Shown here: one piece after another, positions 1,120 through 28,113 of the stretch
How positions within the stretch are numbered: the first letter of the stretch is position 1
Layout: each line of letters begins with the position of its first letter
Source of the DNA: Bacteroidales bacterium
GTDB taxonomy: Bacteria; Bacteroidota; Bacteroidia; Bacteroidales; UBA3824
Assembly (NCBI GenBank): GCA_017962175.1
Contig: JAGCVU010000162.1
Coordinates: 1-54,331, forward strand
Length of the DNA: 54,331 nt
Direction: 5' to 3'
Program-made: the position numbers and the translations under genes
The notes under the pieces: model-generated
Databases searched by the model: none
The model's input: only the letters and a program-made list of their open reading frames with translations
What the model was told of the DNA's origin: nothing

Positions 1120-1156
1120 AAAAAAATCCATAACGAGGTGTTATGGATTTTTTTTT
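1120..1156. terminator. Rho-independent terminator after the oxidoreductase operon
   Basis: A 15-bp perfect stem (AAAAAAATCCATAAC, loop GAGGT, GTTATGGATTTTTTT) runs on into further Ts to 1156. The A-tract on the left makes it potentially bidirectional. It separates the oxidoreductase operon from the dcw cluster. Confidence 0.88.
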
Positions 1157-1161
1157 GCACC

Positions 1162-1250
1162 TTATCAACACCCTGTGAATAACACAACATTCAAACTAAC
1201 AGTGTATTACATCACTTTATCCACAACTTATCCACAATACATGTGGAAAA
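1162..1250. promoter_or_regulatory. Cluster of DnaA-box-like 9-mers upstream of mraZ
   Basis: Two perfect DnaA-box consensus 9-mers TTATCCACA lie on the plus strand at 1217-1225 and 1228-1236. TTATTCACA (minus strand, 1174-1182) and TTTTCCACA (minus strand, 1242-1250) both fit the relaxed TTWTNCACA form. TTATCAACA at 1162-1170 is one base off. The last two boxes on opposite strands form the inverted repeat CCACA-ATACA-TGTGG (1232-1246). Five sites in 89 bases is far above chance. They could mark a replication origin or DnaA control of the dcw promoter. Confidence 0.6.
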
Positions 1251-1288
1251 ATATGTGGCAAAAAGTGGCAAAAAGTGGCTACAAATGG
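1243..1288 (+). promoter_or_regulatory. Phased GTGG repeats, probable MraZ operator
   Basis: GTGG tetramers occur at 1255, 1265 and 1275, with ATGG at 1285: exactly 10 bp apart, one helical turn. A further GTGG lies at 1243. The core unit is AAAAGTGGCA. Known MraZ operators are short direct repeats (TGGG or AAAGTG type) with 10-bp phasing just upstream of mraZ, bound by the ring-shaped MraZ oligomer. The array ends against the proposed -33 element, a good position for autoregulation. Assignment is inferred from spacing, motif and position. Confidence 0.72.
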
Positions 1289-1319
1289 TTGCATAATTCA
1301 AAAAAACACCATAATTTTG
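1288..1319 (+). promoter_or_regulatory. mraZ (dcw) promoter
   Basis: TAATTTTG at 1312-1319 fits the Bacteroidota -7 element TAnnTTTG, and GTTG at 1288-1291 lies 20 bp upstream as a -33 element. Transcription would begin near 1326, giving a leader of about 16 bases before mraZ. A 9-bp inverted repeat (AATTCAAAA at 1295-1303, TTTTGAATT at 1315-1323) overlaps the -7 box. Confidence 0.65.
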
Positions 1320-1341: not shown

Positions 1342-1803
1342 ATGATGACGGTTTTTACAGGAGATTTTGACGTAAAGCTCGATGCCAAAGGACGTTTCTT
1401 GTTTCCCTCCTCGCTATTGCAGCAGATGGAAGAAAGCAACGAAGCCGCCTTCGTTGTCAAAAAAGATATTTACGAACCCTGTCTTACCGTTTACACCAAG
1501 CAAGAATGGCAACGTCAAGTAGAAACCATCCGCAAAAACCTCAACCCGTTTAACCGCGAACACAACATATTCTTACGCGAATTTTTCAAAGATACAGCCG
1601 AATGTGCATTAGATTCAAGCAACAGAATGGTTATTCCCAAACGTCTGGTGCAGTCGGTTAATCTCGAAAGCGAAATTTGTGTAATTGGTCTCGATACTAA
1701 AATCGAAATTTGGGACAAAAAACAATACGAAAAAAGTCATCCTTCTTCTGAAAATTTTGCAGAATTAGCAGAAAAAATTCTTGGAAACTTAGGAAATTTA
1801 TAA
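1342..1803 (+). CDS. mraZ: Transcriptional regulator MraZ
   Basis: A 153-residue MraZ/SpoVT-AbrB-fold DNA-binding protein, first gene of the dcw cluster, expected to bind direct repeats before its own gene and control the cluster. The two MraZ half-domains are visible: FTGDFDVKLDAKGRFLFPSSL near the start and ECALDSSNRMVIPKRLVQ about residues 93-110, each with the typical D(x)KGR/SNR-(F/V)-x-(F/I)P core. Two ATG codons are adjacent at 1342 and 1345; the first is used here. No strong Shine-Dalgarno site is seen, as is usual in this phylum. Phased GTGG boxes and a promoter lie just upstream, and rsmH follows. Confidence 0.95.
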   Translation: MMTVFTGDFDVKLDAKGRFLFPSSLLQQMEESNEAAFVVKKDIYEPCLTVYTKQEWQRQVETIRKNLNPFNREHNIFLREFFKDTAECALDSSNRMVIPKRLVQSVNLESEICVIGLDTKIEIWDKKQYEKSHPSSENFAELAEKILGNLGNL

Positions 1804-1811: not shown

Positions 1812-1819
1812 TACATTTG
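1812..1819 (+). promoter_or_regulatory. Possible internal -7 element before rsmH
   Basis: TACATTTG matches TAnnTTTG between mraZ and the rsmH start. No convincing -33 box at the right spacing was found, so this is a weak candidate for a second promoter that would let rsmH and downstream genes be expressed apart from mraZ. Confidence 0.3.
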
Positions 1820-1846
1820 CATAATTTTAACGAACAATTAACTAGA

Positions 1847-2767
1847 ATGGAACAAAAATATCACATACCGGTAATGCTGCAAGAGTGCATCGAAGGGTTA
1901 AATATTAACCCCGACGGCATATATGTTGACGTTACTTTCGGCGGTGGAGGACATTCCAGAGCCATTCTTGAAAAATTGTCGCCAAAAGGTCGCTTGATTG
2001 CGTTTGACCAAGATTCCGATGCCGCCAAAAATCTTCCCAACGACAAACGCATCACGTTCTATCAAACCAACTTTAAATATTTTGCAAATTTTCTAAATCT
2101 TGAAGGTGTAAAAGTTGACGGCATTTTAGCCGACCTTGGCGTATCGAGTCATCACTTCGACGATGAAAAACGTGGATTCTCGTTCCGCTTCGAAAACGCT
2201 CCGCTTGATATGCGTATGAATCAAAAGTCGGATTTCACAGCTTCGGCATTGTTGTCAACATATTCGCCCGAACAACTCAAAAACGTGTTTGCCGAATATG
2301 GAGAAATCAAAAACGCGTGGAAACTTGCACAAAACATTGCATCATACCGATCCACACACGCCATCAACACCACAGCCGACTTGATAGCTGCCGCCGGCAG
2401 CTGCATTCCCGCTCACAGCGAGAACAAATATCTCGCAACAGTGTTTCAGGCGCTCCGCATCGAGGTCAACGGCGAAATCGACGTTCTCGAAGAATTTCTA
2501 CTATCCACTCCCGATGTGGTAAACGAAGGAGGTCGTCTTGTAATTATGACCTACCACTCGCTCGAAGACCGCCCCGTAAAGAACTTTATCAAAGCGGGCA
2601 ACCTCCAGGGCATCGAACAGAAAGACGTATACGGAAACATCATAGCACCCTTCGCCGCTGTTAACCGCAAGGTAATAACACCGTCCGACGAAGAACTCTC
2701 TCTCAATCCACGCTCGCGTAGCGCAAAACTTCGCATAGCACAACGAAACGTACTTACTACTCATTAA
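1847..2767 (+). CDS. rsmH: 16S rRNA (cytosine-1402 N4)-methyltransferase RsmH
   Basis: RsmH (MraW) methylates N4 of C1402 in 16S rRNA using S-adenosylmethionine. The 306-residue protein begins MEQKYHIPVMLQECIEGL, and shows the SAM-binding DVTFGGGGHSRAIL motif, the ADLGVSSHHFDD motif, RGFSFR and the C-terminal MTYHSLEDRPVKNF and RSRSAKLR segments, all typical. An upstream TTG in frame at 1817 could add ten residues, but family alignments normally start close to the ATG at 1847, which is preferred. It is the usual second gene of the cluster. Confidence 0.95.
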   Translation: MEQKYHIPVMLQECIEGLNINPDGIYVDVTFGGGGHSRAILEKLSPKGRLIAFDQDSDAAKNLPNDKRITFYQTNFKYFANFLNLEGVKVDGILADLGVSSHHFDDEKRGFSFRFENAPLDMRMNQKSDFTASALLSTYSPEQLKNVFAEYGEIKNAWKLAQNIASYRSTHAINTTADLIAAAGSCIPAHSENKYLATVFQALRIEVNGEIDVLEEFLLSTPDVVNEGGRLVIMTYHSLEDRPVKNFIKAGNLQGIEQKDVYGNIIAPFAAVNRKVITPSDEELSLNPRSRSAKLRIAQRNVLTTH

Positions 2768-2779
2768 ATCAATACGATT

Positions 2780-3547
2780 ATGACAAACGATGTACTATTA
2801 GACGACGATTTCGACGACGATTTCTTCAATGAGATGAATAAACAGCAGTCAGAACCCGACAACAAGCCGGAAACTGACTACGAGCCGGAACATCTCAACG
2901 AAGCATACGACCGTGTGTCGAGCAACGGAGCTATGCCTGACCCCGCCGCATATGGTTTTGGCGAAACTGGTCGCGAACTCGACGACCCGTTTTCTAATCA
3001 TATGATGTCAGACTTTGGCAACGAGGCACAAGGTGGTTACGACTCTGAGTTAGGAGGTTTTGCACCCAATTCTGATTATGGCGAATCGTCTGAAAGCGAT
3101 GATGATATTTACAACGAGGAAGACGACGACGATCAAGTCCTCACGCTCATTCAAATGCTCAATAGCAAGAATGTACCATTTAAAAAGCTGATACACAAGA
3201 TTGTAAAGCCGATGGTATTTGTTGTTATTCTCAGTATTTTACTCACCACATACAACCGCATTGTAGAATACGACCTCACCAAGATTTCTCGTCTTACCAA
3301 ACAGCTCGAAAACATCAAGGGCGAGTCGATAATTCTTACCAACGAACTTGCAAGATTTTGCAAAGAGAGTGAAGTAGCAGAAAGAGTAGAATCGCAATCG
3401 CTCGGCATTCATGTGCGCAAAGAACCGTCGCAATATTTTGTGGCAGCCAAATATAATCGTCCCGATTCGCTCAAAAACGAACAAGAACTATTTGAAAAAC
3501 ACAGAAAAAATCTTCAGAAAAAACAACAGACAAATACTGCTCAATAA
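2780..3547 (+). CDS. ftsL: FtsL-like division protein with long acidic N-terminal extension
   Basis: This 255-residue protein occupies the ftsL position between rsmH and ftsI. Its C-terminal half has FtsL architecture: one membrane segment at about residues 144-158 (PMVFVVILSILLTTY), then a coiled coil rich in L/I heptads (about 165-200), then a short extracytoplasmic tail. FtsL bridges FtsQ-FtsB to the FtsW-FtsI synthase. The first 130 residues are unusual: predicted disordered and very acidic, with runs such as LLDDDFDDDFF and EEDDDD. Typical FtsL proteins are about 90-120 residues and have a short cytoplasmic tail. The identification rests on position and topology, since FtsL sequence is poorly conserved. 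Confidence 0.75.
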   Translation: MTNDVLLDDDFDDDFFNEMNKQQSEPDNKPETDYEPEHLNEAYDRVSSNGAMPDPAAYGFGETGRELDDPFSNHMMSDFGNEAQGGYDSELGGFAPNSDYGESSESDDDIYNEEDDDDQVLTLIQMLNSKNVPFKKLIHKIVKPMVFVVILSILLTTYNRIVEYDLTKISRLTKQLENIKGESIILTNELARFCKESEVAERVESQSLGIHVRKEPSQYFVAAKYNRPDSLKNEQELFEKHRKNLQKKQQTNTAQ

Positions 3548-3559
3548 AACTTTAACTAT

Positions 3560-5731
3560 ATGGAACAAGGAAACGAAATAAGGAAGAACATTATTAACAA
3601 GATGGTATTTGTTTACATATTCATCTTGTTTGTTATTTTGGCAATTATAGGGCAGATTATATATCTACAGTCGATACCCGCCGAAGAATGGGCCGACAAA
3701 CTAAAAACTGAGCGTACCGACATCAAGTACACCAAACGTGGCGACATTCTATCTTCCGACGGTTATTATTTGGCTGCATCGGTGCCTGTTTGCTCGGCAT
3801 TTTGGGATCTCAAAGTGCTCAAAAAAGACACTTTTAATAAATACATCGATACTCTCGCCGCTTGTATGAGCAGTTATTTTCAAGACCAAACAAAAGAAGC
3901 ATACAAACAAGAGTACATCAAAGCTCAGCAAGCCGGCAAACGTTATTACAAAATCAAAACCGGACTTACTACACAGCAGCTCAATTATATAAGTCAATTC
4001 CCAATATTCAGAATGCCTAAAAATAAATCGGGATTTATTCGTGAAACCGACTACAAACGCAAGGTTAACGACAATCTTATGGCTCGACGCACAATAGGCG
4101 GTCCCGACACCAACGGAATTTTCTCCATAGGTATCGAAGGTGCATACAACGATATTCTCAAAGGCAACAAATATGTTCAGCTGTCGCACAAACTTTCTAG
4201 TGGAGAGTTTGTTCCTTACAATATGTGGGAAGAGGAAGAAAAAGTTCCCGGATGCGACGTGGTAAGCTCTATCAACCTCAACATGCAAGACATGACCGAA
4301 AAAAGTCTCTTGCGTCAACTTCAAAAATACAACGCCAGAGCAGGCACGGCTGTGGTTATGGAGGTTAAAACCGGCAAAATTCGTTCTATGATAAGCCTTT
4401 TGCGCGATTCTGCCACAGGACGATACGCCGAAACCAAAAATCTTGCTGTGGGATACCGCTCAGCTCCCGGCTCCACGTTCAAACTTGCTTCTATGATAGC
4501 TATTTTGGAATCAGGAGCATACGACATCAACGACTCTATCGACACCGGCAACGGTGAAATGGCAGTTACGGGCAATGTTGTAATGCGCGACGACCACAAA
4601 GGCGGACTCGGCAAAATATCAGTTAGAGATATTTTCACACACTCGTCAAACGTGGGTTTTGGCATAATGGCTGTTACCGCATTCGACAACAATTCCGAAG
4701 ATAAATACATCGACCCACGGCTCAACAACCGAAACGCTCAACGAAACATAACTTATTTTTACGATTTGCTTTACAACATCAAGTTAAATCGTCCCACAGG
4801 CATTAGTATCAAAGGCGAAATGTCGCCAAACATTCCGTACCCCGGCATGAGAAGTAATTTTTCGTATGCCACTATGCCACAAAACGCTATTGGATACGAG
4901 TTGGAAGTTACGCCTTTGCAAACTCTTACACTTTATAATGCTGTTGCCAACAATGGTGTAATGCTTCGTCCGCAAGTAATGGAGTCGGCAAAACTCTATG
5001 GCGATGTAGTTCAAGAATTTGAACCCGAGGTAATTAACCCTTCTATTTGCAGCGAAACAACATTAAAAAAAGTTCAAAATATGCTTGTTGGCGTTGTGGA
5101 AGAGGGCACGGCTTCCAACATTAAATCTAACAAATACAAAATTGCAGGCAAAACAGGTACGGCACAAATATATAGAGGTCAGGTAAAAACCAACAAGCAC
5201 CAAGCCTCGTTTGTGGGATATTTTCCAGCCGACAATCCTAAATATTCGTGCATTGTGGTAATCTACGGACCCGAAGGATCAATCTACGGTAGCAGTGTGG
5301 CTGCGCCGGTGTTCAAAGAGATTGCCGACAAGATTTACACCTCCGACTACGATATGCAACGCAAAGAGTTTAACATAGCCAAACTTGAAGATTCACAATC
5401 AGTGCCCAACACACGCATTGGACATCGTGCCGTTGTTGACCGCATACTTTCGAGACTTCACGTAGAGGTGGTTACCGAAGAACAGTCAAATACCACTTGG
5501 GTGCAAACTCGTCCCACCGAAAATCACAACAAACTATATATCGACAGCTACACTCCCATTCACGGAACAATTCCCAACGTAAAAGGGATGGGTCTCAAAG
5601 ATGCGCTATACGTTTTGCGCAGTCTCGACCTTGCGGTTAAGGTGGTAGGTCACGGTGTTGTTAAACGACAAAGCATCGCACCCGACACACAAATCAAAAA
5701 GGGAATGAGTATAACAATTGAATTAGGATAA
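3560..5731 (+). CDS. ftsI: Division transpeptidase FtsI (PBP2x/PBP3 type) with PASTA domain
   Basis: A 723-residue class B penicillin-binding protein that cross-links septal peptidoglycan as partner of FtsW. An N-terminal membrane anchor (about residues 14-35, FVYIFILFVILAIIGQIIYL) is followed by the PBP dimerisation domain and the transpeptidase domain. The catalytic motifs are visible: SxxK as STFK with Ser305, SxN as SSN in THSSNVGFG, and KTGTA beginning at Lys531. A single PASTA domain lies at the C-terminus (about 660-723, IPNVKGMGLKDALYVL...). It starts 12 bases after ftsL and is followed by murE after 17 bases. Confidence 0.95.
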   Translation: MEQGNEIRKNIINKMVFVYIFILFVILAIIGQIIYLQSIPAEEWADKLKTERTDIKYTKRGDILSSDGYYLAASVPVCSAFWDLKVLKKDTFNKYIDTLAACMSSYFQDQTKEAYKQEYIKAQQAGKRYYKIKTGLTTQQLNYISQFPIFRMPKNKSGFIRETDYKRKVNDNLMARRTIGGPDTNGIFSIGIEGAYNDILKGNKYVQLSHKLSSGEFVPYNMWEEEEKVPGCDVVSSINLNMQDMTEKSLLRQLQKYNARAGTAVVMEVKTGKIRSMISLLRDSATGRYAETKNLAVGYRSAPGSTFKLASMIAILESGAYDINDSIDTGNGEMAVTGNVVMRDDHKGGLGKISVRDIFTHSSNVGFGIMAVTAFDNNSEDKYIDPRLNNRNAQRNITYFYDLLYNIKLNRPTGISIKGEMSPNIPYPGMRSNFSYATMPQNAIGYELEVTPLQTLTLYNAVANNGVMLRPQVMESAKLYGDVVQEFEPEVINPSICSETTLKKVQNMLVGVVEEGTASNIKSNKYKIAGKTGTAQIYRGQVKTNKHQASFVGYFPADNPKYSCIVVIYGPEGSIYGSSVAAPVFKEIADKIYTSDYDMQRKEFNIAKLEDSQSVPNTRIGHRAVVDRILSRLHVEVVTEEQSNTTWVQTRPTENHNKLYIDSYTPIHGTIPNVKGMGLKDALYVLRSLDLAVKVVGHGVVKRQSIAPDTQIKKGMSITIELG

Positions 5732-5748
5732 CATAAAAACAAAAGATT

Positions 5749-7215
5749 ATGCAACTGCAACAATTGATACACGGCATCAAAGCCGAACACACACAGGGCA
5801 ATCTTTCGGTAGATATTACTGAAATTACATCCGATTCGCGCAAAGCGGCTCCCGGAGTATGCTTTATTGCAGTTCCGGGTACTAAAACCGATGGACACGC
5901 TTACATTGCCGACACCATCAAGCAAGGCGTTTCAGCAGTGGTGTGTATGCATTTACCCGAAAATGCTCCCGAAAATGTGGCATTTGTTGTAGTAGCCGAC
6001 ACAGCCGACGCCATTGGCAAAATAGCATCCGAATTTTATGGTCGCCCCTCCGAGCATCTCACACTCGCAGGCGTAACCGGCACCAATGGCAAAACCACCA
6101 CCGCCACACTTTTATATAATATGTTCCGTCAAATGGGACACAAGGCGGGACTCCTATCCACAGTAGAAAACCGAATCGACGACAAGGTATATCCTGCCGT
6201 ACAAACCACTCCCGACCCCATCACTATCAACCGTCTTATGGCAGAAATGGTAGAATCGGGTTGTGAATACTGCTTTATGGAGGTAAGTTCGCACTCAATT
6301 GTGCAGAAACGCATCAGCGGATTAAACTTCCGTCTCGGCATATTCTCAAACATCACTCTCGACCACTTAGACTATCACAAAACATTCTTGGAGTATATCA
6401 AAGCCAAGAAACTATTTTTCGACAACCTTCCGTCCTCTGCCTTTGCCCTCACCAATGGCGACGACAAAAACGGTATGGTAATGGTTCAAAACACCAAAGC
6501 GCAGGTAAAAACCTACGGATTGAAAAACTTCTACGATTTTAAAGCCACTGTATTGGAGAGCAACTTTGAAGGAATGCTTCTCAATATCTGCGGCAAAGAG
6601 ATGTGGACATTCCTCCCCGGACAGTTCAACGCCTACAACGTTCTCGCCGTGTATAGTGCAGCGGTGTTGCTTGGTCAAAATCCCGACGACGTGCTCACAG
6701 CGCTCAGTGCCATGCGTTCGGTACGCGGACGTTTCGACATTGTAAACCTTGCAGGCATCACTGCCATTGTTGATTACGCTCACACTCCCGACGCCCTCGA
6801 AAACGTGCTCAAAACCATTGGACAAATTCGCATTGCGCCTCAAAAAATCATCACGGTATGCGGCTGTGGTGGCGACAGAGACAAGAGCAAACGTCCCATT
6901 ATGGCAAAAATAGCCGTTCAATACTCCGACAAGGTTATCCTCACATCCGACAACCCACGAACCGAAAATCCCGACGCAATTCTCGACGACATGTTCGCCG
7001 GATTAGATACACCTGCACTCAAATCTGCAGCAATACGCATCACCGACCGCCGCGCCGCAATACAGGCAGCATGTTTTGCCGCTCAAAAAGGCGACATCAT
7101 TCTCATTGCCGGCAAGGGTCACGAAACATATCAAGACGTTATGGGAGTAAAATCTCATTTCGACGACAAAGAAATTGTAACACAACAGTTAGAACTTTTA
7201 AATACAACTAAATAA
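5749..7215 (+). CDS. murE: UDP-MurNAc-L-Ala-D-Glu:meso-diaminopimelate ligase MurE
   Basis: MurE adds the third stem-peptide residue to UDP-MurNAc-L-Ala-D-Glu with ATP hydrolysis in the cytoplasm. The 488-residue protein has the Mur ligase ATP-binding loop GTNGKTT (residues 111-117), the EVSSHSI segment, the LDHLDYH metal/substrate region, and the C-terminal DNPR motif (residues 401-404, context TSDNPRTENP). DNPR contacts the carboxylate of meso-diaminopimelate, so the cell wall is predicted to be of the DAP type rather than lysine. No murF or ddl follows in this cluster. The mraY start lies one base beyond the stop, indicating tight coupling. Confidence 0.96.
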   Translation: MQLQQLIHGIKAEHTQGNLSVDITEITSDSRKAAPGVCFIAVPGTKTDGHAYIADTIKQGVSAVVCMHLPENAPENVAFVVVADTADAIGKIASEFYGRPSEHLTLAGVTGTNGKTTTATLLYNMFRQMGHKAGLLSTVENRIDDKVYPAVQTTPDPITINRLMAEMVESGCEYCFMEVSSHSIVQKRISGLNFRLGIFSNITLDHLDYHKTFLEYIKAKKLFFDNLPSSAFALTNGDDKNGMVMVQNTKAQVKTYGLKNFYDFKATVLESNFEGMLLNICGKEMWTFLPGQFNAYNVLAVYSAAVLLGQNPDDVLTALSAMRSVRGRFDIVNLAGITAIVDYAHTPDALENVLKTIGQIRIAPQKIITVCGCGGDRDKSKRPIMAKIAVQYSDKVILTSDNPRTENPDAILDDMFAGLDTPALKSAAIRITDRRAAIQAACFAAQKGDIILIAGKGHETYQDVMGVKSHFDDKEIVTQQLELLNTTK

Positions 7216-7216
7216 A

Positions 7217-8461
7217 ATGCTCTATTATCTCTTTAAATATTTGCAAGAATTCAACGTACCCGGCTCAGGATTGTTCAACTACATATCCTTCCGTTCGGGC
7301 ATGGCTGTTATCACATCGCTGCTTATCACCATGATTTTCGGCAAGCGTTTTATCAATTATATGCGCCGCCGTCAGATTGGCGAATCGGTTCGCGACCTTT
7401 ATCTCGACGGACAAAAACAAAAAACCGGCACTCCCACCATGGGCGGCATCATGATTATTGCAGCCATCATCGTTCCGGTGCTTCTTTTTGCTGAACTTGG
7501 CAACACCTATATATTATTGTTACTTTTCACCACAGTATGGCTCGGCTGCGTAGGTTTTGCCGATGATTATATAAAGGTGTTTAAGAAAAACAAAGACGGA
7601 CTTTCAAGTCGTGCTAAACTTGCTGCACAGATATTTCTCGGCATAGTTATCGGACTTTCAATCTATCTCAGTCCCGATATTCTGGTTCGCGAAAATCCCG
7701 AGTTGTCTACCGAGCAAGTGGAGCAATTTATTGAAGAAGACGGACTTACAGAAACCACCTATCTTCCCAACGATGTTAAATCGCTCAAAACCACATTGCC
7801 GTTTGTAAAAGACAACGAATTCGACTATTCTAAAATAGCATTCTTTGTGGATAGCAACCAATATCCATGGGTAGGATGGATAATTTTTATAGCCGTGGTC
7901 ACATTCATTATCACAGCAGTATCCAACGGAGCCAACATGACCGACGGATTAGACGGACTTGCATCAGGCACGTCGGCAGTATCGGCAGCCACCTTGTTGG
8001 TGTTTGCCTATCTATCGGGCAACGTTATATTTTCGCAATATCTAAAAATAATGTATCTACCCGGCATAGGCGAACTTGTGGTATTCTCGTCGGCATTTAT
8101 CGGTGCCACCATAGGTTTCCTTTGGTACAATGCATATCCGGCGCAGATATTTATGGGCGACACGGGCAGTCTCACCATAGGCGGCATCATAGCGGTGTTG
8201 GCAATACTCGTGCGCAAAGAGTTGCTCATTCCCATCTTCTGCGGTATTTTCTTAATTGAAAACATCAGCGTGATGGCTCAAGTGTGGTATTTTAAGCGCA
8301 CACTCAAAAAATATGGTTGCGGCATGCACCTATTTCTTATGGCGCCGTTGCACCATCATTATCAAAAGAAAGGAATTCCCGAGCCCAAAATAGTGGCAAG
8401 GTTTATAATAGTTGCCTTAATATTGGCAGTAATATCGGTTATAACATTAAAAATCAGATAA
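7217..8461 (+). CDS. mraY: Phospho-N-acetylmuramoyl-pentapeptide-transferase MraY
   Basis: MraY transfers phospho-MurNAc-pentapeptide to undecaprenyl phosphate to make lipid I at the inner membrane. The 414-residue polytopic protein shows KKTGTPTMGG-like (QKTGTPTMGG), the catalytic GFADDYIK aspartates, NGANMTDGLDGLA and FMGDTGSL motifs, and APLHHHYQKKG near the end. It is about 50 residues longer than the E. coli enzyme because of an insertion at about residues 155-220 (from PDILVREN to SNQYPW), which I recall as common in Bacteroidota MraY. It lies between murE and murD with minimal gaps. Confidence 0.96.
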   Translation: MLYYLFKYLQEFNVPGSGLFNYISFRSGMAVITSLLITMIFGKRFINYMRRRQIGESVRDLYLDGQKQKTGTPTMGGIMIIAAIIVPVLLFAELGNTYILLLLFTTVWLGCVGFADDYIKVFKKNKDGLSSRAKLAAQIFLGIVIGLSIYLSPDILVRENPELSTEQVEQFIEEDGLTETTYLPNDVKSLKTTLPFVKDNEFDYSKIAFFVDSNQYPWVGWIIFIAVVTFIITAVSNGANMTDGLDGLASGTSAVSAATLLVFAYLSGNVIFSQYLKIMYLPGIGELVVFSSAFIGATIGFLWYNAYPAQIFMGDTGSLTIGGIIAVLAILVRKELLIPIFCGIFLIENISVMAQVWYFKRTLKKYGCGMHLFLMAPLHHHYQKKGIPEPKIVARFIIVALILAVISVITLKIR

Positions 8462-8468
8462 ATAAAAA

Positions 8469-9803
8469 ATGGCAAAGAAAATATCAATACTCGGAGCAGG
8501 CGAAAGCGGAATCGGCGCTGCAATATTAGCACAGAAAAAAGGTTTCGAAGTGTTTGTATCCGACTGCGGTACAATCAAAGAAAATTATATAGAGCAATTG
8601 CAAAAATATAATATACCCTTTGAACAAGGTCATCATACCGAAGAAAAAATACTTTCATCAGACGAAGTAATCAAAAGTCCCGGTATAAGAAACAATGCAC
8701 CCTTGATACTAAAACTCGTAGAAAAGGGCATACCAGTGATTTCGGAGATAGAATTTGCGGCAAGATATACCAATGCCGTAAAAGTCTGCATTACCGGAAG
8801 CAATGGAAAAACAACTACCACCGAATTAATTTATAAAATTTTCAAGGACGCTGGACTAAATGTCGCCATCGCCGGAAACGTTGGCAAGAGTTTTGCACTA
8901 CAAGTTGCTGAAAAAGAGTACGATTACTACGTTATTGAACTTAGTAGTTTCCAACTCGACAACATGTACAACTTTAAAGCCGAGATAGCAATTCTGCTAA
9001 ATGTAACGCCCGATCACCTCGACCGTTACGACTACAAAATGCAGAACTACACCGACTCAAAGTTCAGAATTACTCAAAATCAAACCGCCGACGACCTGTT
9101 CATCTACTGCGCCGACGATCCGGTAACAGCCGAAGAAATCAAAAAACGCACGTTCTCTCAGAGACTCGCGCCGTTCTCCATTAAAAATGAACAAGTTACA
9201 GGTTCCTATATAAACAACGGAAATATGATAATTAAGCTTGAAAACAACGAAGCCGTTATCTCTACGGCAAACTTCTCTTTAGAAGGTCAGCACAACATGT
9301 ACAACAGTATGGCCGCCGGCATTGCCGCGATGGCTTGCAACATACGCAGCAACTCTATCCGTCAAAGTTTTGAAACTTTCAAAGGTTTGGAGCACCGTCT
9401 TGAGCATTTTCTGTCGGTTCGCGGCGTAGAATTTGTCAACGACTCTAAAGCCACCAACGTAAACTCAGTGTGGTACGCTTTGGAAAGCATCAAAACCAAA
9501 GTGATACTTATTCTCGGTGGCATCGACAAGGGCAACGACTACAGCGAACTATATGCGCTTGTTCGTCAGAAGGTTAAAGCAATTGTGGCTCTCGGCAAAA
9601 ACAACGAGCCTATTCACAAAGCATTTGATGGAATGGTAGAAGTGATCGACACTCAAAGCATGGAAAACTGCGTAAAAACCTGTTTCCTTCTTGCCGACAA
9701 GGGCGACACTGTATTGCTTTCGCCTGCGTGCGCTAGTTTCGACCTCTTTACTTGCTACGAAGACCGTGGCGAGCAATTCAAGGAGTGTGTGCGCAACCTT
9801 TAA
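8469..9803 (+). CDS. murD: UDP-N-acetylmuramoylalanine--D-glutamate ligase MurD
   Basis: MurD adds D-glutamate to UDP-MurNAc-L-alanine. The 444-residue protein begins with a nucleotide-binding ISILGAGESGIGAA loop, has the ATP loop GSNGKTTTTELI at about residues 110-121, the YYVIELSSFQLD and LNVTPDHLDRY motifs, GLEHRLE, and the C-terminal ligase domain with NDSKATNVNS and LSPACASFD. These motifs separate MurD from MurC, MurE and MurF. It begins 7 bases after mraY. No sign of truncation or fusion. Confidence 0.96.
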   Translation: MAKKISILGAGESGIGAAILAQKKGFEVFVSDCGTIKENYIEQLQKYNIPFEQGHHTEEKILSSDEVIKSPGIRNNAPLILKLVEKGIPVISEIEFAARYTNAVKVCITGSNGKTTTTELIYKIFKDAGLNVAIAGNVGKSFALQVAEKEYDYYVIELSSFQLDNMYNFKAEIAILLNVTPDHLDRYDYKMQNYTDSKFRITQNQTADDLFIYCADDPVTAEEIKKRTFSQRLAPFSIKNEQVTGSYINNGNMIIKLENNEAVISTANFSLEGQHNMYNSMAAGIAAMACNIRSNSIRQSFETFKGLEHRLEHFLSVRGVEFVNDSKATNVNSVWYALESIKTKVILILGGIDKGNDYSELYALVRQKVKAIVALGKNNEPIHKAFDGMVEVIDTQSMENCVKTCFLLADKGDTVLLSPACASFDLFTCYEDRGEQFKECVRNL

Positions 9804-9836
9804 TATTACTACTCGGAAACTCAAACATAACGGACA

Positions 9837-11060
9837 ATGAAAAAACAAATTTTTGGTATCTTCAAAGGCGACAAGTGGATATGGACTTGCTATATAGTGC
9901 TGCTATTAGCGTCGCTGATGTTTGTACACAGTACTACTGGTGCACTCGAATTTCAGCGGCATAGCAATCCGGTGCACTTTCTGATAAGCCAAGGCGGGTT
10001 TATCATTATGGCAATTGTTGCGGCATTGATAATGAGCAACCTTTCGTACAAAAAGCTCTTCAACCTTGCCAACATAGCCATAGGCGTAAGTTTAGTGCTA
10101 CTGTTTATAACTCTGGCTTTTGGCGACGCCACCAACGACGCCAAACGATGGCTCAAAATTCCAATCATCGACCAGACTATACAAACATCCGACATTGCCA
10201 AGCTGTGTTTAACCATATTCATAGCCAAAGTAATGTCTACGCACCAACGCGATGATGAAGATATCAAAAAAGGCGCCATCTATTCAGCTGTGGCAATAGC
10301 AGCAGTATGTCTATTGATACTTCCTGCCAACCTTTCAACAGCATTGCTCATCGGAATCACTTCGGTGATGTTGCTTATCATTGCCCGTGTAAAACTAAAA
10401 CACATTTTGTTAGTTGGCAGCGGACTCGGAATTTTTGTTTTTCTATTAATAATAGTACTCGGCAAAACAGGCACTTTTAACCGTGCCGAAACTTGGGTAA
10501 ATCGTATCGAAGCATACGTTCAGAGCGATGATGCTCAAGACAAAAAAGACACTTTCCAAGCCGACCAAGCCAAAATAGCCATATCGCGAGGAGGTCTAAT
10601 AGGTCAGGGTTCTGGAGCAAGTATGCAGAAAAACGTGCTGCCCCACCCCTATTCCGACTTTATTTTTGCATCAATAATCGAAGAACGCGGACTACTTGCC
10701 GGACTTGGTATCATTGTGCTCTACGTCATAATGATGCACAGATGCGTTATCTCAGCCAAATACCAGTCGAGCGCCTTTCCTGCCTTTCTCTGCATTGGGC
10801 TTGCACTAAATATTATAATGCAAGCCGTGTCGAATATGGTGGTGGCGGTAAACCTTGTGCCGGTAACAGGTCAGCCGTTGCCCATGGTTAGTATGGGCGG
10901 AACGTCGCTGATAATTTCATCTGTATCGGTAGGTATAATATTGAATATCAGCAGATATTCAGAACAACATGGTAAAGAAAAGGAAAAAGAAGAGGTGGAG
11001 GAGAGCGACCGCGAACAAAATATCGAGGACATCACCGACTACCCGTTTGTAATAGGTTAA
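9837..11060 (+). CDS. ftsW: Septal peptidoglycan polymerase FtsW (SEDS family)
   Basis: FtsW polymerises glycan strands from lipid II at the septum together with FtsI. The 407-residue protein has about ten membrane segments and the SEDS signatures: DATNDAKRWLKIP, the DFIFASIIEERGLLAG segment (contains the conserved E-x-G region), and the C-terminal PVTGQPLPMVSMGGTS loop. The cytoplasmic C-terminal tail (about residues 380-407) is highly charged, with a KEKEKEEVEESD run. Its place between murD and murG in the cluster distinguishes it from RodA, which usually sits with mreCD/mrdA. Confidence 0.94.
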   Translation: MKKQIFGIFKGDKWIWTCYIVLLLASLMFVHSTTGALEFQRHSNPVHFLISQGGFIIMAIVAALIMSNLSYKKLFNLANIAIGVSLVLLFITLAFGDATNDAKRWLKIPIIDQTIQTSDIAKLCLTIFIAKVMSTHQRDDEDIKKGAIYSAVAIAAVCLLILPANLSTALLIGITSVMLLIIARVKLKHILLVGSGLGIFVFLLIIVLGKTGTFNRAETWVNRIEAYVQSDDAQDKKDTFQADQAKIAISRGGLIGQGSGASMQKNVLPHPYSDFIFASIIEERGLLAGLGIIVLYVIMMHRCVISAKYQSSAFPAFLCIGLALNIIMQAVSNMVVAVNLVPVTGQPLPMVSMGGTSLIISSVSVGIILNISRYSEQHGKEKEKEEVEESDREQNIEDITDYPFVIG

Positions 11061-11078
11061 CCATTAACACAGAGCATT

Positions 11079-12185
11079 ATGAAAGTACTTATAGGAGGCG
11101 GAGGCACAGGCGGACACGTTTTTCCTGCCATTGCTATTGCTCAGGCTATAAAAAAAGCCGCACCCGACACCGAAATACTATTTGTGGGCGCACAAGACAA
11201 AATTGAGATGGAGAAAGTGCCTGCTGCGGGATTCAAAATCATAGGACTTCCGGCGGCGGGTTTGCAACGTAAACTCACTCTCAAAAACCTTGCTCTGCCA
11301 TTCAAACTGCTCAAATGCGCACGCATGTCGAAAAAAATCATCAAAGATTTTCAGCCCGACATAGCTGTTGGTGTTGGAGGATATGCCTCAGGACCAATTC
11401 TCCGTGCTGCATCTAAAGCAGGAGTGCCAATAATGCTACAAGAACAAAACTCTCACGCAGGACTCACCAACAAGATGCTTGCCGACAAGGCTGTTAAAAT
11501 TTTTACCGCCTACAAAAATATGGACAAGTATTTCGACCCTGCCAAAACAATGCTCACAGGCAATCCTGTACGCGCCGACATTGCCGAAAACACTGCTACT
11601 CGCGAAGAGGCCATAGAGCATTTCAACCTCAATCCCGACAAAAAAACATTGCTCATAATCGGCGGAAGTCTCGGTGCCGGCACTATCAACAAGAGCATGC
11701 TCAAATTTGCCGAAAAATTTCAAACCGAAAGCAACATTCAGATTATTTGGCAAACCGGCAAATACTATTGGAACGACATCGAAGCCGCAATGAAAACCAA
11801 AAACTGCCCCGACATACATCCCACGGCATTTGTTAAACGCATGGATTTGGCTTACAAGGCTGCTGATGTGGTGGTTTCGCGTTCGGGTGCATTGTCGGTT
11901 TCCGAGTTGTGTCTTGCTGCCAAACCTGTTATTTTCATACCTTCGCCCAACGTTGCCGAAGACCATCAAACCAAAAATGCAATGGCTCTTGTTAACGAAA
12001 ACGCTGCCGACATCATCAAAGACAGCGAGGCAGAACAACTTTTTTTCGATAAAGTACAAAATTTATGTAATGATAGCGAAACAATGCATACATATTCAAA
12101 AAATATTTATAAATTAGCAGTTAAAAACTCGGCGGATATTATCGCCGAAGAAGTAATAAAATATGCTAATAATAAATTAAAATAA
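11079..12185 (+). CDS. murG: UDP-GlcNAc transferase MurG
   Basis: MurG transfers GlcNAc from UDP-GlcNAc to lipid I, forming lipid II at the cytoplasmic face of the membrane. The 368-residue GT-B fold protein has the N-terminal glycine-rich GGGGTGGHVFPAIAIAQA loop, the second conserved LQEQNSHAGLTNK segment, and the C-terminal-domain motifs IIGGSLGA and SRSGALSVSE, followed by FIPSPNVAEDHQTKNA. Length and motif order are standard. It starts 18 bases after ftsW; a lipoprotein gene rather than murC follows. Confidence 0.95.
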   Translation: MKVLIGGGGTGGHVFPAIAIAQAIKKAAPDTEILFVGAQDKIEMEKVPAAGFKIIGLPAAGLQRKLTLKNLALPFKLLKCARMSKKIIKDFQPDIAVGVGGYASGPILRAASKAGVPIMLQEQNSHAGLTNKMLADKAVKIFTAYKNMDKYFDPAKTMLTGNPVRADIAENTATREEAIEHFNLNPDKKTLLIIGGSLGAGTINKSMLKFAEKFQTESNIQIIWQTGKYYWNDIEAAMKTKNCPDIHPTAFVKRMDLAYKAADVVVSRSGALSVSELCLAAKPVIFIPSPNVAEDHQTKNAMALVNENAADIIKDSEAEQLFFDKVQNLCNDSETMHTYSKNIYKLAVKNSADIIAEEVIKYANNKLK

Positions 12186-12216
12186 GAATAACGAATTATA
12201 ACAAAAAACATTACTC

Positions 12217-13101
12217 ATGAAACGTATTACTACATTGATAATAGCTGCCGCAGCAATTGTTTCCACAGCCGCGCTCCAAAGCTGCAACAACGCGCCCTAT
12301 CAAAAAACCAACGCCAAAAACCGTATGGCAAGCGTTACCGTTCAGGCGCTCAATAATATGTCTGAAATCTACTCCGAAATCGAAGAAGTGGCTATCAAAA
12401 ACGAATTTGACAACGCTCTTGCCAATGTGCTTTCGCATCAAGACGCCAACTACAACCCGGTAGTGGTCACCAACGAAGAACTTCGTCAAAAAATCGACAT
12501 CTTCAACCTTTACCGCATTGCATTGCACGAATACACAAAACTTACAAGTGCCGAGTCTACGCTAAAATCGCTCTCACCTTTTAGCAACGCTTGCGCCAAC
12601 ATCACATCTAAATTCCGCACAGCCAACGACTCTACACTTCACGAAAAAGCTAACATCATCAATTCATACATCACATCGCAGCGTTACAACACCGACAAGG
12701 TGATGAACATTCTCATCAATATGCTTGATGAAATTTGGCAAAAAGACTCCAAAGATTGGAACAATCTGCTCAACGAATCATTTGCCAACTATCAGTTAGC
12801 TGTCAACAACATTCCCGAAGATAGTTTCAACGAGGAAAAACTCGCTAAATATGTTTACCAACCTTACGACGGCAAAACAGCTCTTGTGGAGGCATACAAA
12901 CTCAACCTCATCAAAGAACGCTACGACTATGTTCGCGGATTTGTCAACAGCCAAGACAACATTACCACAGCACTTAAATATCTCTGCGAAATATCCAACG
13001 CACTGCTCAAGGCTCGCGACGTGGAAGAAATCGACAACGACATCAGCAAAGCCGAAGCTGCTCTCAAAGCTTGTGATTTTGGACAAAAAGAACTAGAATA
13101 A
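12217..13101 (+). CDS. Uncharacterised lipoprotein inserted in the dcw cluster
   Basis: I do not recognise this 294-residue protein. It has a lipoprotein signal peptide: MKRITTLIIAAAAIVS, then a lipobox-like ALQSC with the acylated Cys near residue 23, followed by a short NNAPYQKT linker. The remainder is predicted mostly alpha-helical, hydrophilic and rich in N, E, K and A, with no transmembrane segment and no catalytic motif seen. It begins 31 bases after murG and its TAA overlaps the murC ATG by one base (TAATG), so it is translationally coupled to murC. In most dcw clusters murC follows murG directly. An envelope-division role is inferred only from position. Confidence 0.85.
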   Translation: MKRITTLIIAAAAIVSTAALQSCNNAPYQKTNAKNRMASVTVQALNNMSEIYSEIEEVAIKNEFDNALANVLSHQDANYNPVVVTNEELRQKIDIFNLYRIALHEYTKLTSAESTLKSLSPFSNACANITSKFRTANDSTLHEKANIINSYITSQRYNTDKVMNILINMLDEIWQKDSKDWNNLLNESFANYQLAVNNIPEDSFNEEKLAKYVYQPYDGKTALVEAYKLNLIKERYDYVRGFVNSQDNITTALKYLCEISNALLKARDVEEIDNDISKAEAALKACDFGQKELE

Positions 13102-14507
13102 TGAACCAGTTTGAAAACATAAAATACGTCTACCTGCTCGGCATTGGCGGCATAGGTATGAGCGCTCTCGCAAGATATTTCAACGAGGGCGGTTTCGAAG
13201 TTTATGGCTACGACCTCACCGAATCGCCACTTACCAAACAGTTGCAAAGCGAAGGCATTACCATCACTTACACCGACGACACCGAACAAATTCCCGACAA
13301 AATTGTGCTCGATGTTAAAAGCACAATGGTAATATTCACGCCTGCCATACCCAAAAACAACAAGCATTTCTGCTTTTTCTCCGAAGGCGAATACCTTATG
13401 CTCAAACGTGCCAAGGTATTAGGAATCATTGCCAACGGATACAAAACTATTGCAGTTTCGGGCACTCACGGCAAAACCACCAACTCTTGCACCATAGCCA
13501 ACATTTTTCAAGAGTCGGGCTTAGACAGCTTTGCATTTCTCGGTGGAATATCCAAAAATATCGACAGCAATCTGTTGCTTCCTCGCAAGCAAGAGAGTTT
13601 CTCCAATCCGGAAACACTGCTTGTGGCAGAGGCCGACGAGTACGACAAATCCTTTTTGTGGCTCAATCCATTTGCCACCATCATCACATACGTTGACGCC
13701 GACCATCTCGACATATACAAAAACCGCGATGAAATCATAACCACTTTCAATCAGTTTGCACAGTCAACACACCGCAACGGATTTGTGGTTGTCAACAAAA
13801 AAATCGATAATCTTATCGACACCGCCGGAATACGCAAAATCACATATTCCGACACCGACACCACAGCCGACTACTACGCCGAAAATATCCGCTTAGACAA
13901 CGGCACATACACCATCGACGCACACACTCCATCGGGTGTGGTTGCCGACATTACCATTGGAGCAAAAGGTCGTGTAAATATTGAAAACACAATGGCTTGC
14001 ATTGCAGCTTGTGAAAACATAGGCATCAAAATGTCGGGCATCAAAAAAGGAATAGCCACATTCCGAGGCGTTAAACGTCGTATGGATATTCACGTACAAA
14101 AACCCGATTTTGTATACATCGACGACTATGCTCACCATCCTCGCGAATTGGAAGCCACAATCACATCGGCCAAGCAATTATTTCCGGGCAAAAAATCGTT
14201 GGGCATTTTCCAGCCCCATTTGTTCACAAGAACAAGAGATTTTGCCGAAGGATTTGCGCAAAGCCTTGATTTACTTGACGATGTAATTCTTATGGATATC
14301 TATCCGGCACGTGAAAAACCCATCGAAGGTGTCACATCCAAAATGATAGCCGACTTGATGAAAAACAAAAATGTTATAATTTTAAACGAATTATCACAAA
14401 TAATTAGCTACATACAGCAAAAAAATGTAAAACTTTTATTATCTTTGGGCGCGGGAAATATCGACAAAATCGTAAAGCCGCTTACAGAGGCATTTTCAAA
14501 TCTCTAA
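13101..14507 (+). CDS. murC: UDP-N-acetylmuramate--L-alanine ligase MurC
   Basis: MurC adds L-alanine to UDP-MurNAc, the first stem-peptide step. The 468-residue protein has an N-terminal LLGIGGIGMSALARYF loop, the MurC-type ATP loop SGTHGKTTNSC (about residues 120-130), EADEYDKSFL, the TYVDADHLD segment, VKRRMDIH, YIDDYAHHPRE and FQPHLFTRTRDF. The TVHGKTT/GTHGKTT form and DYAHHP are diagnostic for MurC. The start ATG overlaps the stop of the preceding lipoprotein gene by one base. Confidence 0.96.
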   Translation: MNQFENIKYVYLLGIGGIGMSALARYFNEGGFEVYGYDLTESPLTKQLQSEGITITYTDDTEQIPDKIVLDVKSTMVIFTPAIPKNNKHFCFFSEGEYLMLKRAKVLGIIANGYKTIAVSGTHGKTTNSCTIANIFQESGLDSFAFLGGISKNIDSNLLLPRKQESFSNPETLLVAEADEYDKSFLWLNPFATIITYVDADHLDIYKNRDEIITTFNQFAQSTHRNGFVVVNKKIDNLIDTAGIRKITYSDTDTTADYYAENIRLDNGTYTIDAHTPSGVVADITIGAKGRVNIENTMACIAACENIGIKMSGIKKGIATFRGVKRRMDIHVQKPDFVYIDDYAHHPRELEATITSAKQLFPGKKSLGIFQPHLFTRTRDFAEGFAQSLDLLDDVILMDIYPAREKPIEGVTSKMIADLMKNKNVIILNELSQIISYIQQKNVKLLLSLGAGNIDKIVKPLTEAFSNL

Positions 14508-14520
14508 ATCAGGCGTAAAA

Positions 14521-15315
14521 GTGAACAAGGGCACGTTAAAAAATATCGGAATTATAATGGCAGCAGTTGTTTTCGCAGCTGCTATAATATACTCATCGTC
14601 AAAATTCCGCGACACTTTATGCGGTGCTATCGACATCAACATCAAGGATTCAAACCAAATCAGTTTCATATCTCGCAATGATGTTTTGCAGTTGATACAC
14701 AACCCTTCGCACGAAATTCTCGGCACGCCGCTCAACGATATCGACATCAACGATATGGAAATTTACCTTCAGCAGCAACCCTACATCCGTCAAGCCGACA
14801 TATACAAAACTGTCAACGGACACCTGAAAGTAGACATCCAACAGCGCAAACCCATAGTTGAAATCATCACTGCCACCAACAAAAACTACTACATCGACGA
14901 AGACGGAACAATTTTCCCGGGTAGTCAAAAAGGCAAAGCTCCTAATGTAATGGTGGCTAACGGCTTTATCAGCGACAAATACAACTTCGACAAGCACCAC
15001 ACTTACAATATTTACAACGAAAACATCAAGACGTCAAAAGAAGCTGAGATATTTCGTCTGGCACGATATATTGCCAAAGACGAATTTTGGCGCGACCAAG
15101 TAGAGCAGATATACGTCAATGAGTCAAACGAATACGAAATTGTACCTCTTGTAGGTCCAAAATTATTAGAAATTGGTTCTATCGACAACTACGACGAAAA
15201 GCTCTTCTATCTTAAAAACTTCTTTACCAACGGATTGAAAAAAACCGGTTGGAACAAATACCAGTCGGTAAGTGTAAAATACAAAGGACAGATAGTATGC
15301 AGCAAAGCAATATAA
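14521..15315 (+). CDS. ftsQ: Cell division protein FtsQ
   Basis: FtsQ is a single-pass membrane protein that links the FtsB-FtsL pair to the divisome. The start codon is GTG (14521). A membrane helix lies at about residues 9-24 (IGIIMAAVVFAAAIIYSS), followed by a POTRA-like region (about 35-100: SRNDVLQLIHNPSHE..., PYIRQADIYKTVNGHLKV) and a beta-rich FtsQ domain with QRKPIVEI and YYIDEDGTIFPGS, both typical. Length (264 residues) and position between murC and ftsA agree. Sequence conservation is low across the family, so position carries weight. Confidence 0.9.
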   Translation: MNKGTLKNIGIIMAAVVFAAAIIYSSSKFRDTLCGAIDINIKDSNQISFISRNDVLQLIHNPSHEILGTPLNDIDINDMEIYLQQQPYIRQADIYKTVNGHLKVDIQQRKPIVEIITATNKNYYIDEDGTIFPGSQKGKAPNVMVANGFISDKYNFDKHHTYNIYNENIKTSKEAEIFRLARYIAKDEFWRDQVEQIYVNESNEYEIVPLVGPKLLEIGSIDNYDEKLFYLKNFFTNGLKKTGWNKYQSVSVKYKGQIVCSKAI

Positions 15316-15357
15316 ATTACAAGGAAATAACAATAATTAGAAACTAATATAAAAACT

Positions 15358-16695
15358 ATGCCGTGTAACAATATCATCACAGCCATCGACATTGGCACGT
15401 CGAAAACAGTGGCCATAGCCGGCACAAAAGACGACCAAGGAAGAGTGAAAATACTCGGAATCGGCGAAGCCGAGACTAAGGGTGTAATCCGTGGCACAGT
15501 GCAGAACATTATGTCTGCGAGAGATTCCATCAAAGAAGCAGTTGAAAAATGCCAGAAAGCAGCCAACGTACAATTCAAATACGTGTATGTAGGCATCGAC
15601 GGACGCAACATCTGCGGTCAGGTAAACAGCCACTCCAAAATCATAACCGACATCATCACCGACGACGACATTAAGCAGCTTACCGAAGAACTCAACCAAA
15701 TTTCGGCAGGACAAGACGAAAATATTATCCATGTGATTCCACAAGGCTACTCTGTCGACAACAACGCCGTTGGACTCAACCCCAAAGGCTACAACGGTCG
15801 CAAGCTCGAAGGCACTTTCTACGTGGTAAAAGGCAAAGACAAGGCCGTTAATAATATTCGTCAAGCTGTGGAAATGGCTGGATTAAAAATTATCAAGCTC
15901 ATTCTCGAACCTTTGGCATCGGCAGAAGCCGTTTTATCTAAAGACGAGAAAGAAGTGGGCGTGATACTTGCCGACATAGGCGCCGGCACTGCCGACATAG
16001 CTGTTTTTCAAGACAACATTCTGCGCTACACAAGCGTAGTGCCACTCGGAGGCAAAGCCATTACCAACGATATCAAAAAAGGTTGCGGTGTGCTTGAACG
16101 TCAAGCTGAGCAAATCAAAGTACAATACGGAGCAGCGTTGTCGCAAAAAGACTTCGCCAAAAAAGCTGTTACTGTTAAAGGTGTTAACGGAAAATCTAAA
16201 GAGATACCTTTCACCGCGATAGCATCTATCATCAATGCCCGTGTAGAGGAGATTCTCGGCGGCATAGCCAACGAAATTGACACCATCAGAAACCAGACAC
16301 AACTGAGCGCAGGTTTGGTACTCACTGGCGGCACTTCAAAACTCAAGAGCCTTGTGCAGCTTGCCAAATTCCGTTTGTCGATCGAAACTCGCACCGGAAC
16401 TCCGCTGTATATCAACCCCGAATATTCTACCGAAGGATATGCAGCAGCCGTTGGTCTTATTATAAAAGGTATGGAATATACCGAAAGCATTCTCGAACAA
16501 CGTCGTCTCAAAGCCGAAAAAGAAAAAGCAGCCGAACAGCAGCAAACCTCTCAGGCTACCAAACCCGACGACAAAGCTAAAGACAACTCCAAAGCAAAAA
16601 CCAAAGACGATAACGACGATAAAGGAGGTATCCGCGGCTGGTTCGACAGTCTCATCGGCAAAATATTCTCAGAGCCAAACGATAGCAAAATGTAA
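15358..16695 (+). CDS. ftsA: Cell division protein FtsA
   Basis: FtsA is an actin-like ATPase that tethers FtsZ to the membrane. The 445-residue protein has the phosphate-1 loop AIDIGTSKTVAIAG, the SHDS-like IIHVIPQGYSVDN region, the phosphate-2 loop LADIGAGTADIAVF, and the adenosine loop LTGGTSKLKSL. A charged low-complexity linker of about 40 residues (KAEKEKAAEQQQ... to KDDNDDKGG) precedes the C-terminal amphipathic helix IRGWFDSLIGKIF, the expected membrane-targeting sequence. It lies 30 bases before ftsZ. Confidence 0.96.
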   Translation: MPCNNIITAIDIGTSKTVAIAGTKDDQGRVKILGIGEAETKGVIRGTVQNIMSARDSIKEAVEKCQKAANVQFKYVYVGIDGRNICGQVNSHSKIITDIITDDDIKQLTEELNQISAGQDENIIHVIPQGYSVDNNAVGLNPKGYNGRKLEGTFYVVKGKDKAVNNIRQAVEMAGLKIIKLILEPLASAEAVLSKDEKEVGVILADIGAGTADIAVFQDNILRYTSVVPLGGKAITNDIKKGCGVLERQAEQIKVQYGAALSQKDFAKKAVTVKGVNGKSKEIPFTAIASIINARVEEILGGIANEIDTIRNQTQLSAGLVLTGGTSKLKSLVQLAKFRLSIETRTGTPLYINPEYSTEGYAAAVGLIIKGMEYTESILEQRRLKAEKEKAAEQQQTSQATKPDDKAKDNSKAKTKDDNDDKGGIRGWFDSLIGKIFSEPNDSKM

Positions 16696-16725
16696 CTTGA
16701 AACCATTAACTAAAAGGAAGACAAA

Positions 16726-18063
16726 ATGACCCCGGAAATAGACAACGAAACTCTTGGTTTTATCTGTGAACCCACGAGAAACAATATAATTAAAGTAATC
16801 GGTGTAGGTGGAGGCGGAGGCAACGCTGCCAACTACATGTTCAATTATGGTATTCACGATGTTGACTTCATCATTGCCAACACCGACCAACAGGCACTCA
16901 ACGCAAGCCCGATTCAGGTAAAAGTTCCCCTTGGCGAAAAACTCACCGAAGGTCTCGGAGCGGGCAACAATCCTGAAAACGGCAAACAAGCAGCTATCGA
17001 AAGTATCGAAAAACTCAAAACCGCTCTCGACACAGGCACCAAGATGCTATTTGTCACAGCCGGAATGGGCGGCGGCACAGGCACAGGAGCAGCTCCTATC
17101 ATTGCCAAAACCGCCAAAGATATGGGCATACTTACAGTGGCTATCGTTACCATACCATTCAGATACGAAGGACCCAAACGTGTAAAACAAGCTCTCACCG
17201 GTCTGGAACAGTTGTCGCAAGGTGTTGACGCAATGCTGGTTATCGACAACGAGAAAATCCGCGAAATGTATGGCAACATGCCGGCACGTCAGGCTTTCTC
17301 CAAAGCCGATGACATCTTAACAATGGCTGCCAAAGGTATTGCAGAAATAATCACCGTTCCGGGCGAAATCAACGTCGACTTTGCCGATGTTAAAACTGTG
17401 ATGGAAGATAGCGGCGTAGCTTTGATGGGACGTGGCGAGGCCGACGGCGAAAACCGTGCTCTCGATGCCATCAAAGGCGCACTCAACTCTCCATTGCTCA
17501 ACAACAACGACATTCGCGGTGCCAAAAACCTGCTCGTAAACATCATATCATCGTCAGAGCGTCCCACCACACTCGAAGAGGTAGGCACTATCAACGAACA
17601 CGTACAAGCAGCAGCCGGCGAAAGCGCAAACCTTATCTGGGGACAAACCACCGACGAAAATCTCGGTTCTAAGATATGCGTCACCCTTATTGCCACAGGT
17701 TTCGACAAACAAGAAATTCTCAATCCATACGAACATCCATCGGCTCCAAAACCGGCGCCCAAACCCGAAGTCAAGGTTGAAGAACCCGCCAAGGCAGACA
17801 CCGAAAGCGAAAACACCGACAACCAAGACGAAACCGACAACGCCGACAGCACCACCGAAGGCGAAACTACCGAAAACGAAACCGCCGACGAAGAAGAAAA
17901 AATCAGCGAAGTGGTGATACAGAGCAAGTTTCAGAAAATAAACTTTGCCGATATTCAAAATCTTGAAGAAATCGAAAACTGTCCCGCCTTTGAACGCAAG
18001 GGCATAAAGCTGTCGTTCGATGTTCCAAAAGACGCTAAGAAATTTCCGTTGGTAGAGGATTAA
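16726..18063 (+). CDS. ftsZ: Cell division GTPase FtsZ
   Basis: FtsZ polymerises into the division ring. The 445-residue protein has the nucleotide-binding GVGGGGGNAANYM region, the tubulin signature GGGTGTG (residues 115-121), the PFRYEGPKR segment, and the catalytic T7 region DFADVKTVMEDSG. A linker of roughly 80 residues rich in E, D, T and N (about 340-410) leads to a C-terminal tail with CPAFERKGIKLSFD, which resembles the conserved PAFxRK-type peptide that binds FtsA in this phylum. No terminator is visible after the stop, so transcription may run into the signalling genes downstream. Confidence 0.97.
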   Translation: MTPEIDNETLGFICEPTRNNIIKVIGVGGGGGNAANYMFNYGIHDVDFIIANTDQQALNASPIQVKVPLGEKLTEGLGAGNNPENGKQAAIESIEKLKTALDTGTKMLFVTAGMGGGTGTGAAPIIAKTAKDMGILTVAIVTIPFRYEGPKRVKQALTGLEQLSQGVDAMLVIDNEKIREMYGNMPARQAFSKADDILTMAAKGIAEIITVPGEINVDFADVKTVMEDSGVALMGRGEADGENRALDAIKGALNSPLLNNNDIRGAKNLLVNIISSSERPTTLEEVGTINEHVQAAAGESANLIWGQTTDENLGSKICVTLIATGFDKQEILNPYEHPSAPKPAPKPEVKVEEPAKADTESENTDNQDETDNADSTTEGETTENETADEEEKISEVVIQSKFQKINFADIQNLEEIENCPAFERKGIKLSFDVPKDAKKFPLVED

Positions 18064-19312: not shown

Positions 19313-19328
19313 ATAATCCCACCGAAAT

Positions 19329-19703: not shown

Positions 19704-19728
19704 GATATAACAATAAGAATGTTAGTTG

Positions 19729-19790: not shown

Positions 19791-19822
19791 TTTTTTCAAA
19801 CAATCATCACCTATTTAGGGCA

Positions 19823-21844: not shown

Positions 21845-21855
21845 ATTTTACAACA

Positions 21856-28084: not shown

Positions 28085-28113
28085 TTTTTATTAGCGGTCA
28101 TAAATTTAAGCGG

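Follow-up and report, generated by a model that had tools for sequence, protein, structure and literature searches.

In B. subtilis, DnaA binds the ftsL promoter region, as detected by ChIP (Goranov et al. 2005, cited in PMC8203912), and the ftsL operon includes rsmH and pbpB (excerpt of PMC11019786). The presence of DnaA at a division-operon promoter is already known, from the ftsL region of B. subtilis and from ftsZ in Caulobacter. The DnaA boxes within ftsQA of E. coli, according to the available text of PMC8203912, have been shown not to control ftsZ transcription. In E. coli, as in Mycoplasma genitalium, MraZ is described as a repressor (excerpt of PMC8475190), and the MraZ site in the Mollicutes is given as (AAAGTGKN3)3 (excerpt of PMC5282649).

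The window analysed here, the whole stretch of 54,331 nucleotides, is a single contig (C13) of a Bacteroidales MAG that comprises 298 contigs and 3.83 Mb, and whose closest named relatives are mostly MAGs from ruminant and horse gut. Upstream of mraZ it carries an 89-bp cluster of box sequences which, judged from its sequence and placement, is likely to consist of DnaA sites in the mraZ–dcw regulatory region, just 5' of the MraZ operator and promoter. The features of the locus are as follows.

1123..1156, plus strand: hairpin and T-run, AAAATCCATAAC-GAGGT-GTTATGGATTTTTTTT, recognised by eye; probable terminator of the 2-oxoacid:ferredoxin oxidoreductase genes
1162..1170, plus strand: distal DnaA-type box TTATCAACA, converging with the box at 1174-1182 across a CCC spacer
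1174..1182, minus strand: distal DnaA-type box TTATTCACA, by sequence match
1217..1225, plus strand: proximal DnaA box TTATCCACA, first member of a tandem pair; alignment column TTATCMACA in 7/7 aligned genomes
1228..1236, plus strand: proximal DnaA box TTATCCACA, second member of the tandem pair, starting 11 bp from the first
1242..1250, minus strand: inverted DnaA box TTTTCCACA, by sequence match
1255..1288, plus strand: predicted MraZ operator (AAAGTGGCAA)n, with GTGG at 1255, 1265 and 1275 and ATGG at 1285 (10-bp period)
1289..1319, plus strand: what we take, by eye, to be probably a promoter of the Bacteroidota type, TTG at 1289-1291, 20 nt, then TAATTTTG at 1312-1319
1342..1803, plus strand: mraZ, start ATG at 1342 or 1345 (Pfam PF02381, 4.6e-27)
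1817..18063, plus strand: dcw cluster under the mraZ promoter, from Pfam matches and ORFs

The 5' neighbours of the box cluster are the 2-oxoacid:ferredoxin oxidoreductase genes; a simple terminator scan did not call the hairpin at 1123-1156. The dcw cluster lies on a single strand and contains rsmH/mraW, an ftsL-like gene, a gene for a penicillin-binding protein with transpeptidase and PASTA domains, Mur-synthesis genes, ftsA and ftsZ. Directly after ftsZ and on the same strand, genes for a DUF6272 protein and two PAS-type histidine kinases occupy 18161-24942. Elsewhere in the window are two tandem genes for FGE-sulfatase (formylglycine-generating enzyme-like) proteins (27164-28914) and, on the minus strand, a PD-(D/E)XK nuclease family transposase gene (31496-32464). 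No Rfam RNA was found in the window.

All five DnaA-type 9-mers were recovered exactly where the original prediction had placed them, at a density far above chance. Sites matching TTWTNCACA are not in excess across the window as a whole (five seen, about eight expected); four of these five are packed into 77 bp, and the densest 100 bp in 300 Markov shuffles of the window held two. Single copies of TTATCCACA show no clear enrichment genome-wide (65 against 54 in the reversed control), and two same-strand copies within 30 bp occur only at the mraZ site in the 3.83-Mb draft genome and nowhere in the reversed control. At the predicted origins of the group TTATCAACA, which had been regarded as a near-match, ranks among the two most frequent types of box. 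The convergent pair at 1162-1182 reads TTATCAACA-CCC-TGTGAATAA, and in two relatives (G017 and G005) bases within the pair are changed with the CCC spacer constant.

The array between the boxes and mraZ did not figure in the original prediction. It is laid out as GTGGCAAAAA-GTGGCAAAAA-GTGGCTACAA-ATGG; its GTG-core repeats, at least three in number, recur every 10 bp ahead of mraZ, and such an array would be expected by chance 0.09 times. In sequence it matches the operator published for MraZ, (AAAGTGKN3)3, as quoted from PMC5282649, and is thus a predicted MraZ operator. An array of this kind lies upstream of mraZ in 78 of 80 named loci. The DnaA boxes end just 5' of the GTGG repeats and overlap neither operator nor promoter. 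The Bacteroidota promoter consensus is TTTG / TAnnTTTG. A sigma-70 scan gave no useful match; the promoter is probably of the Bacteroidota type, and its TTG-20-TAATTTTG arrangement is retained across the close clade with the exception of one genome (G010).

The boxes lie in the regulatory region of the gene and are conserved in relatives, both across the order and across the class. Of 79 named Bacteroidales loci, 59 have a plus-strand match to TT(A/T)T(C/T)(A/C)ACA between -150 and -60 of mraZ, against a Markov mean of 1.1 (maximum 4 in 300) and 11 on the opposite strand; a control stretch at -300 to -210 holds a box in 2 of 78 loci. An order-level sample gave a box in 44 of 54 genomes (0.26 expected). 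Among other Bacteroidia orders, 18 of 29 genomes carry a box in the same place and orientation (mean 0.3, maximum 3), often reading TTTTCAACA and in one case TTTTCCACA. Boxes most usually read AAAAGTTAT(C/T)AACAA, terminating at or near the first GTGG repeat. Sampling about 0.9 Mb of sequence turned up ten copies of the extended version, AGTTAT(C/T)AACAA, four of these being mraZ promoters and one the predicted origin of a genus-mate (G003). In most relatives the box is a single one bearing A at position 6, which by E. coli standards is a weak DnaA box. In the close clade of the window a tandem pair stands in place of the single box, accompanied in most genomes by an inverted box; the position corresponding to 1242-1250 is TTATCCACA or TTATCAACA in five genomes (G006, G017, G015, G003 and G010), and the distal convergent pair occurs in three of seven, G017 and G005 included.

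The element is dispensable: within the genus, one sister clade (L009-L019) has mostly lost the mraZ boxes, with MraZ, the array and DnaA kept. In the box-losing clade, domain IV of DnaA is of the AKDIASARQ type as against RKREIVQARQ. Some of its members still carry boxes at nadA, the gene beside the predicted origin described below, so that a lost DnaA specificity does not fully explain the loss at mraZ. The divergent RAKDIASARQ-type domain IV was seen in dnaA of this clade, clade B, at L293, L295, L296, L298, L299 and L302-L305. Three clade B genomes (G004, G013 and G016) have no boxes upstream of nadA either, which may mean that the origin of these genomes has been relocated or altered.

Several observations indirectly connect the mraZ boxes to DnaA itself. 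DnaA domain IV retains the D-H-(S/A)-T-V signature. The variants found at mraZ, TTATCAACA, TTATTAACA, TTATCCACA, TTTTCAACA and TTTTCCACA, are the variants found at the nadA-side origins. Furthermore, the choice of C or T at position 5 covaries between mraZ boxes and origin boxes (rho 0.69 over 31 genomes); averaged by family, 19 families give rho 0.74 with p 3e-4, a value to be taken as a guide since families are not fully independent, and the partial rho is 0.72 given the neutral ATYAA context, a measure of C/T preference outside boxes. Genomes of the close clade also have a TTATTAACA-type 9-mer upstream of dnaA, at a distance of 212-273 bp, as expected for DnaA autoregulation.

These observations weigh against the foremost rival explanation, that the element is bound not by DnaA but by some other regulator, or provides MraZ with an outer contact. 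The distance from box to repeat is commonest at 11 bp (36 of 56), about one helical turn, and the group's usual GTTAT(C/T)AACAA departs from the E. coli optimum. That distance is nevertheless variable (11-14 and 27-28 bp), and the box sequence does not resemble AAAGTGG. In the close clade, moreover, copies occur in tandem, inverted and convergent arrangements, like those of origins, and the boxes share both their covarying variants with the origins and their vocabulary with the region upstream of dnaA. We regard this explanation as unlikely.

Slightly less probable again is that the boxes mainly titrate DnaA, in the manner of datA in E. coli, leaving dcw transcription unaffected. Titration sites for DnaA are known in E. 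coli, and the five boxes in the window are more than one promoter needs. However, most of the class has one box, in a fixed place and orientation beside the MraZ operator, as would be more natural for a promoter element than for a sink.

The original prediction also entertained a replication origin at the cluster. Closed order-mates were scanned for clusters of TTATNNACA pairs. G246 is closed in one contig of 3.196 Mb. Its skew is positive over roughly the first 1.6 Mb and, beyond 1.8 Mb, mostly negative; across about 0-8 kb it is negative before and positive after, and at 7.8-8.5 kb, upstream of nadA, lies a cluster of four TTATCAACA boxes and one TTATCCACA. The mraZ of G246, at 642 kb, has positive skew on both sides. 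In G183 (closed, 4.81 Mb) skew changes from -0.08 to +0.07 across 17-kb stretches meeting at nadA (2.482 Mb), and is negative on both sides of mraZ at 1.807 Mb. Thus in both genomes mraZ lies deep within one replichore, and the skew has the same sign on either side of the gene. The genome of the window itself has eight boxes 201-518 bp upstream of nadA (C243:2757-3082, L165), where 2000 shuffles averaged 0.4 and never exceeded 4, in a layout identical in three relatives (G003, G005 and G017). At least three boxes lie upstream of nadA in 24 of 54 genomes, where 155 boxes were counted in total against 18 expected. The Bacteroidales replication origin is accordingly predicted directly upstream of nadA, and that of the present genome at the nadA-side cluster on C243, an assignment by homology as the contigs cannot be ordered.

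Clusters of boxes upstream of nadA were also seen at L152-L158, L162, L163 and L167. In another closed genome, G128, nadA has no boxes; about five TTATTAACA-type boxes lie instead within 112 bp at about 8627-8739 of L180 (G128:C1:2988628-2988739), a candidate for a relocated origin or some other DnaA target. Coding strands in the genus are C-rich, with a third-position GC skew near -0.3 (the window, and contigs C24 and C36 of G003), so that GC skew there reflects gene direction more than replication direction; in the genus-mate G003 it follows gene direction and is weakly informative on the origin.

An origin at mraZ would account for several DnaA boxes beside an AT-rich stretch, as an oriC is expected to have, in a phylum in which dnaA is not an origin marker (PMC4755523, from its available text), yet it was rejected as highly improbable, because in G246 and G183 the skew changes at nadA and not at mraZ, the eight boxes on C243 are a stronger candidate, and only one box lies at mraZ in most relatives. 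Of the two conditions that the original prediction had named for its refutation, one is borne out, in that a skew minimum and a DnaA cluster do lie elsewhere; the other is not, as the boxes at mraZ are conserved in relatives.

The alternative put forward originally, a dcw promoter regulated by DnaA, fares better: conservation across order and class and covariation with origin boxes both support it, the binding of DnaA and its regulatory effect being the inferred part. Weighing against it are the loss of the boxes in the sister clade, the lone and weak box of most relatives, and the ftsQA boxes of E. coli with their lack of control over ftsZ. On balance, and with some hesitation, we favour a composite present across the class Bacteroidia, in which DnaA and MraZ would occupy adjacent sites at the dcw promoter as a conserved replication–division circuit. 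The cluster itself is probably a part of the mraZ–dcw promoter that responds to DnaA: DnaA would bind the mraZ boxes and serve the division and cell-wall operon as a transcription factor, in concert with the adjacent MraZ or in opposition to it. As the boxes lie upstream of operator and promoter without overlap, we lean slightly towards DnaA activating transcription, or relieving repression by MraZ, rather than repressing directly. Expression of dcw would then track the level or the nucleotide state of DnaA.

A search of the open literature for DnaA together with mraZ in Bacteroidota returned nothing, which is weak evidence of novelty; nor was a description of the composite with MraZ, or of its class-wide conservation, found in the open papers searched. 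Such an arrangement may couple DNA copying to cell division across the class. A DnaA box beside an MraZ operator would be a simple and genetically testable link between replication and division, Bacteroides strains being manipulable. The predicted nadA-side origin, for its part, would aid peak-to-trough estimates of growth rate in a group in which the position of dnaA is no guide to the origin.

A number of parallels can be drawn with described systems. As at ftsL of B. subtilis, DnaA is placed at the promoter region of a division operon in the same gene cluster, in vivo there and through predicted boxes here; the phylum is different, and a composite with an MraZ operator is undescribed for B. 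subtilis in the available text of PMC8203912 and PMC11019786. The operon proteins RsmH and PbpB of B. subtilis are reported as unchanged after replication arrest (excerpt of PMC11019786). The Caulobacter promoters of ftsZ, mipZ and gcrA (PMC8203912, in the text available) likewise have DnaA at division genes, although the promoter concerned is that of ftsZ rather than mraZ, and DnaA dependence is experimental there and sequence-inferred here. The MraZ operators of E. coli and the Mollicutes share the GTG-core direct repeats upstream of mraZ, and the (AAAGTGKN3)3 of the Mollicutes has the same 10-bp period as the array at 1255-1288; the excerpts of PMC8475190 and PMC5282649 report no adjacent DnaA box for either. 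Finally, the predicted oriC of Prevotella intermedia (excerpt of PMC4755523) also has multiple DnaA boxes distant from dnaA, but in closed relatives of the present genome the mraZ cluster is without a skew transition, whereas the nadA-side cluster has one.
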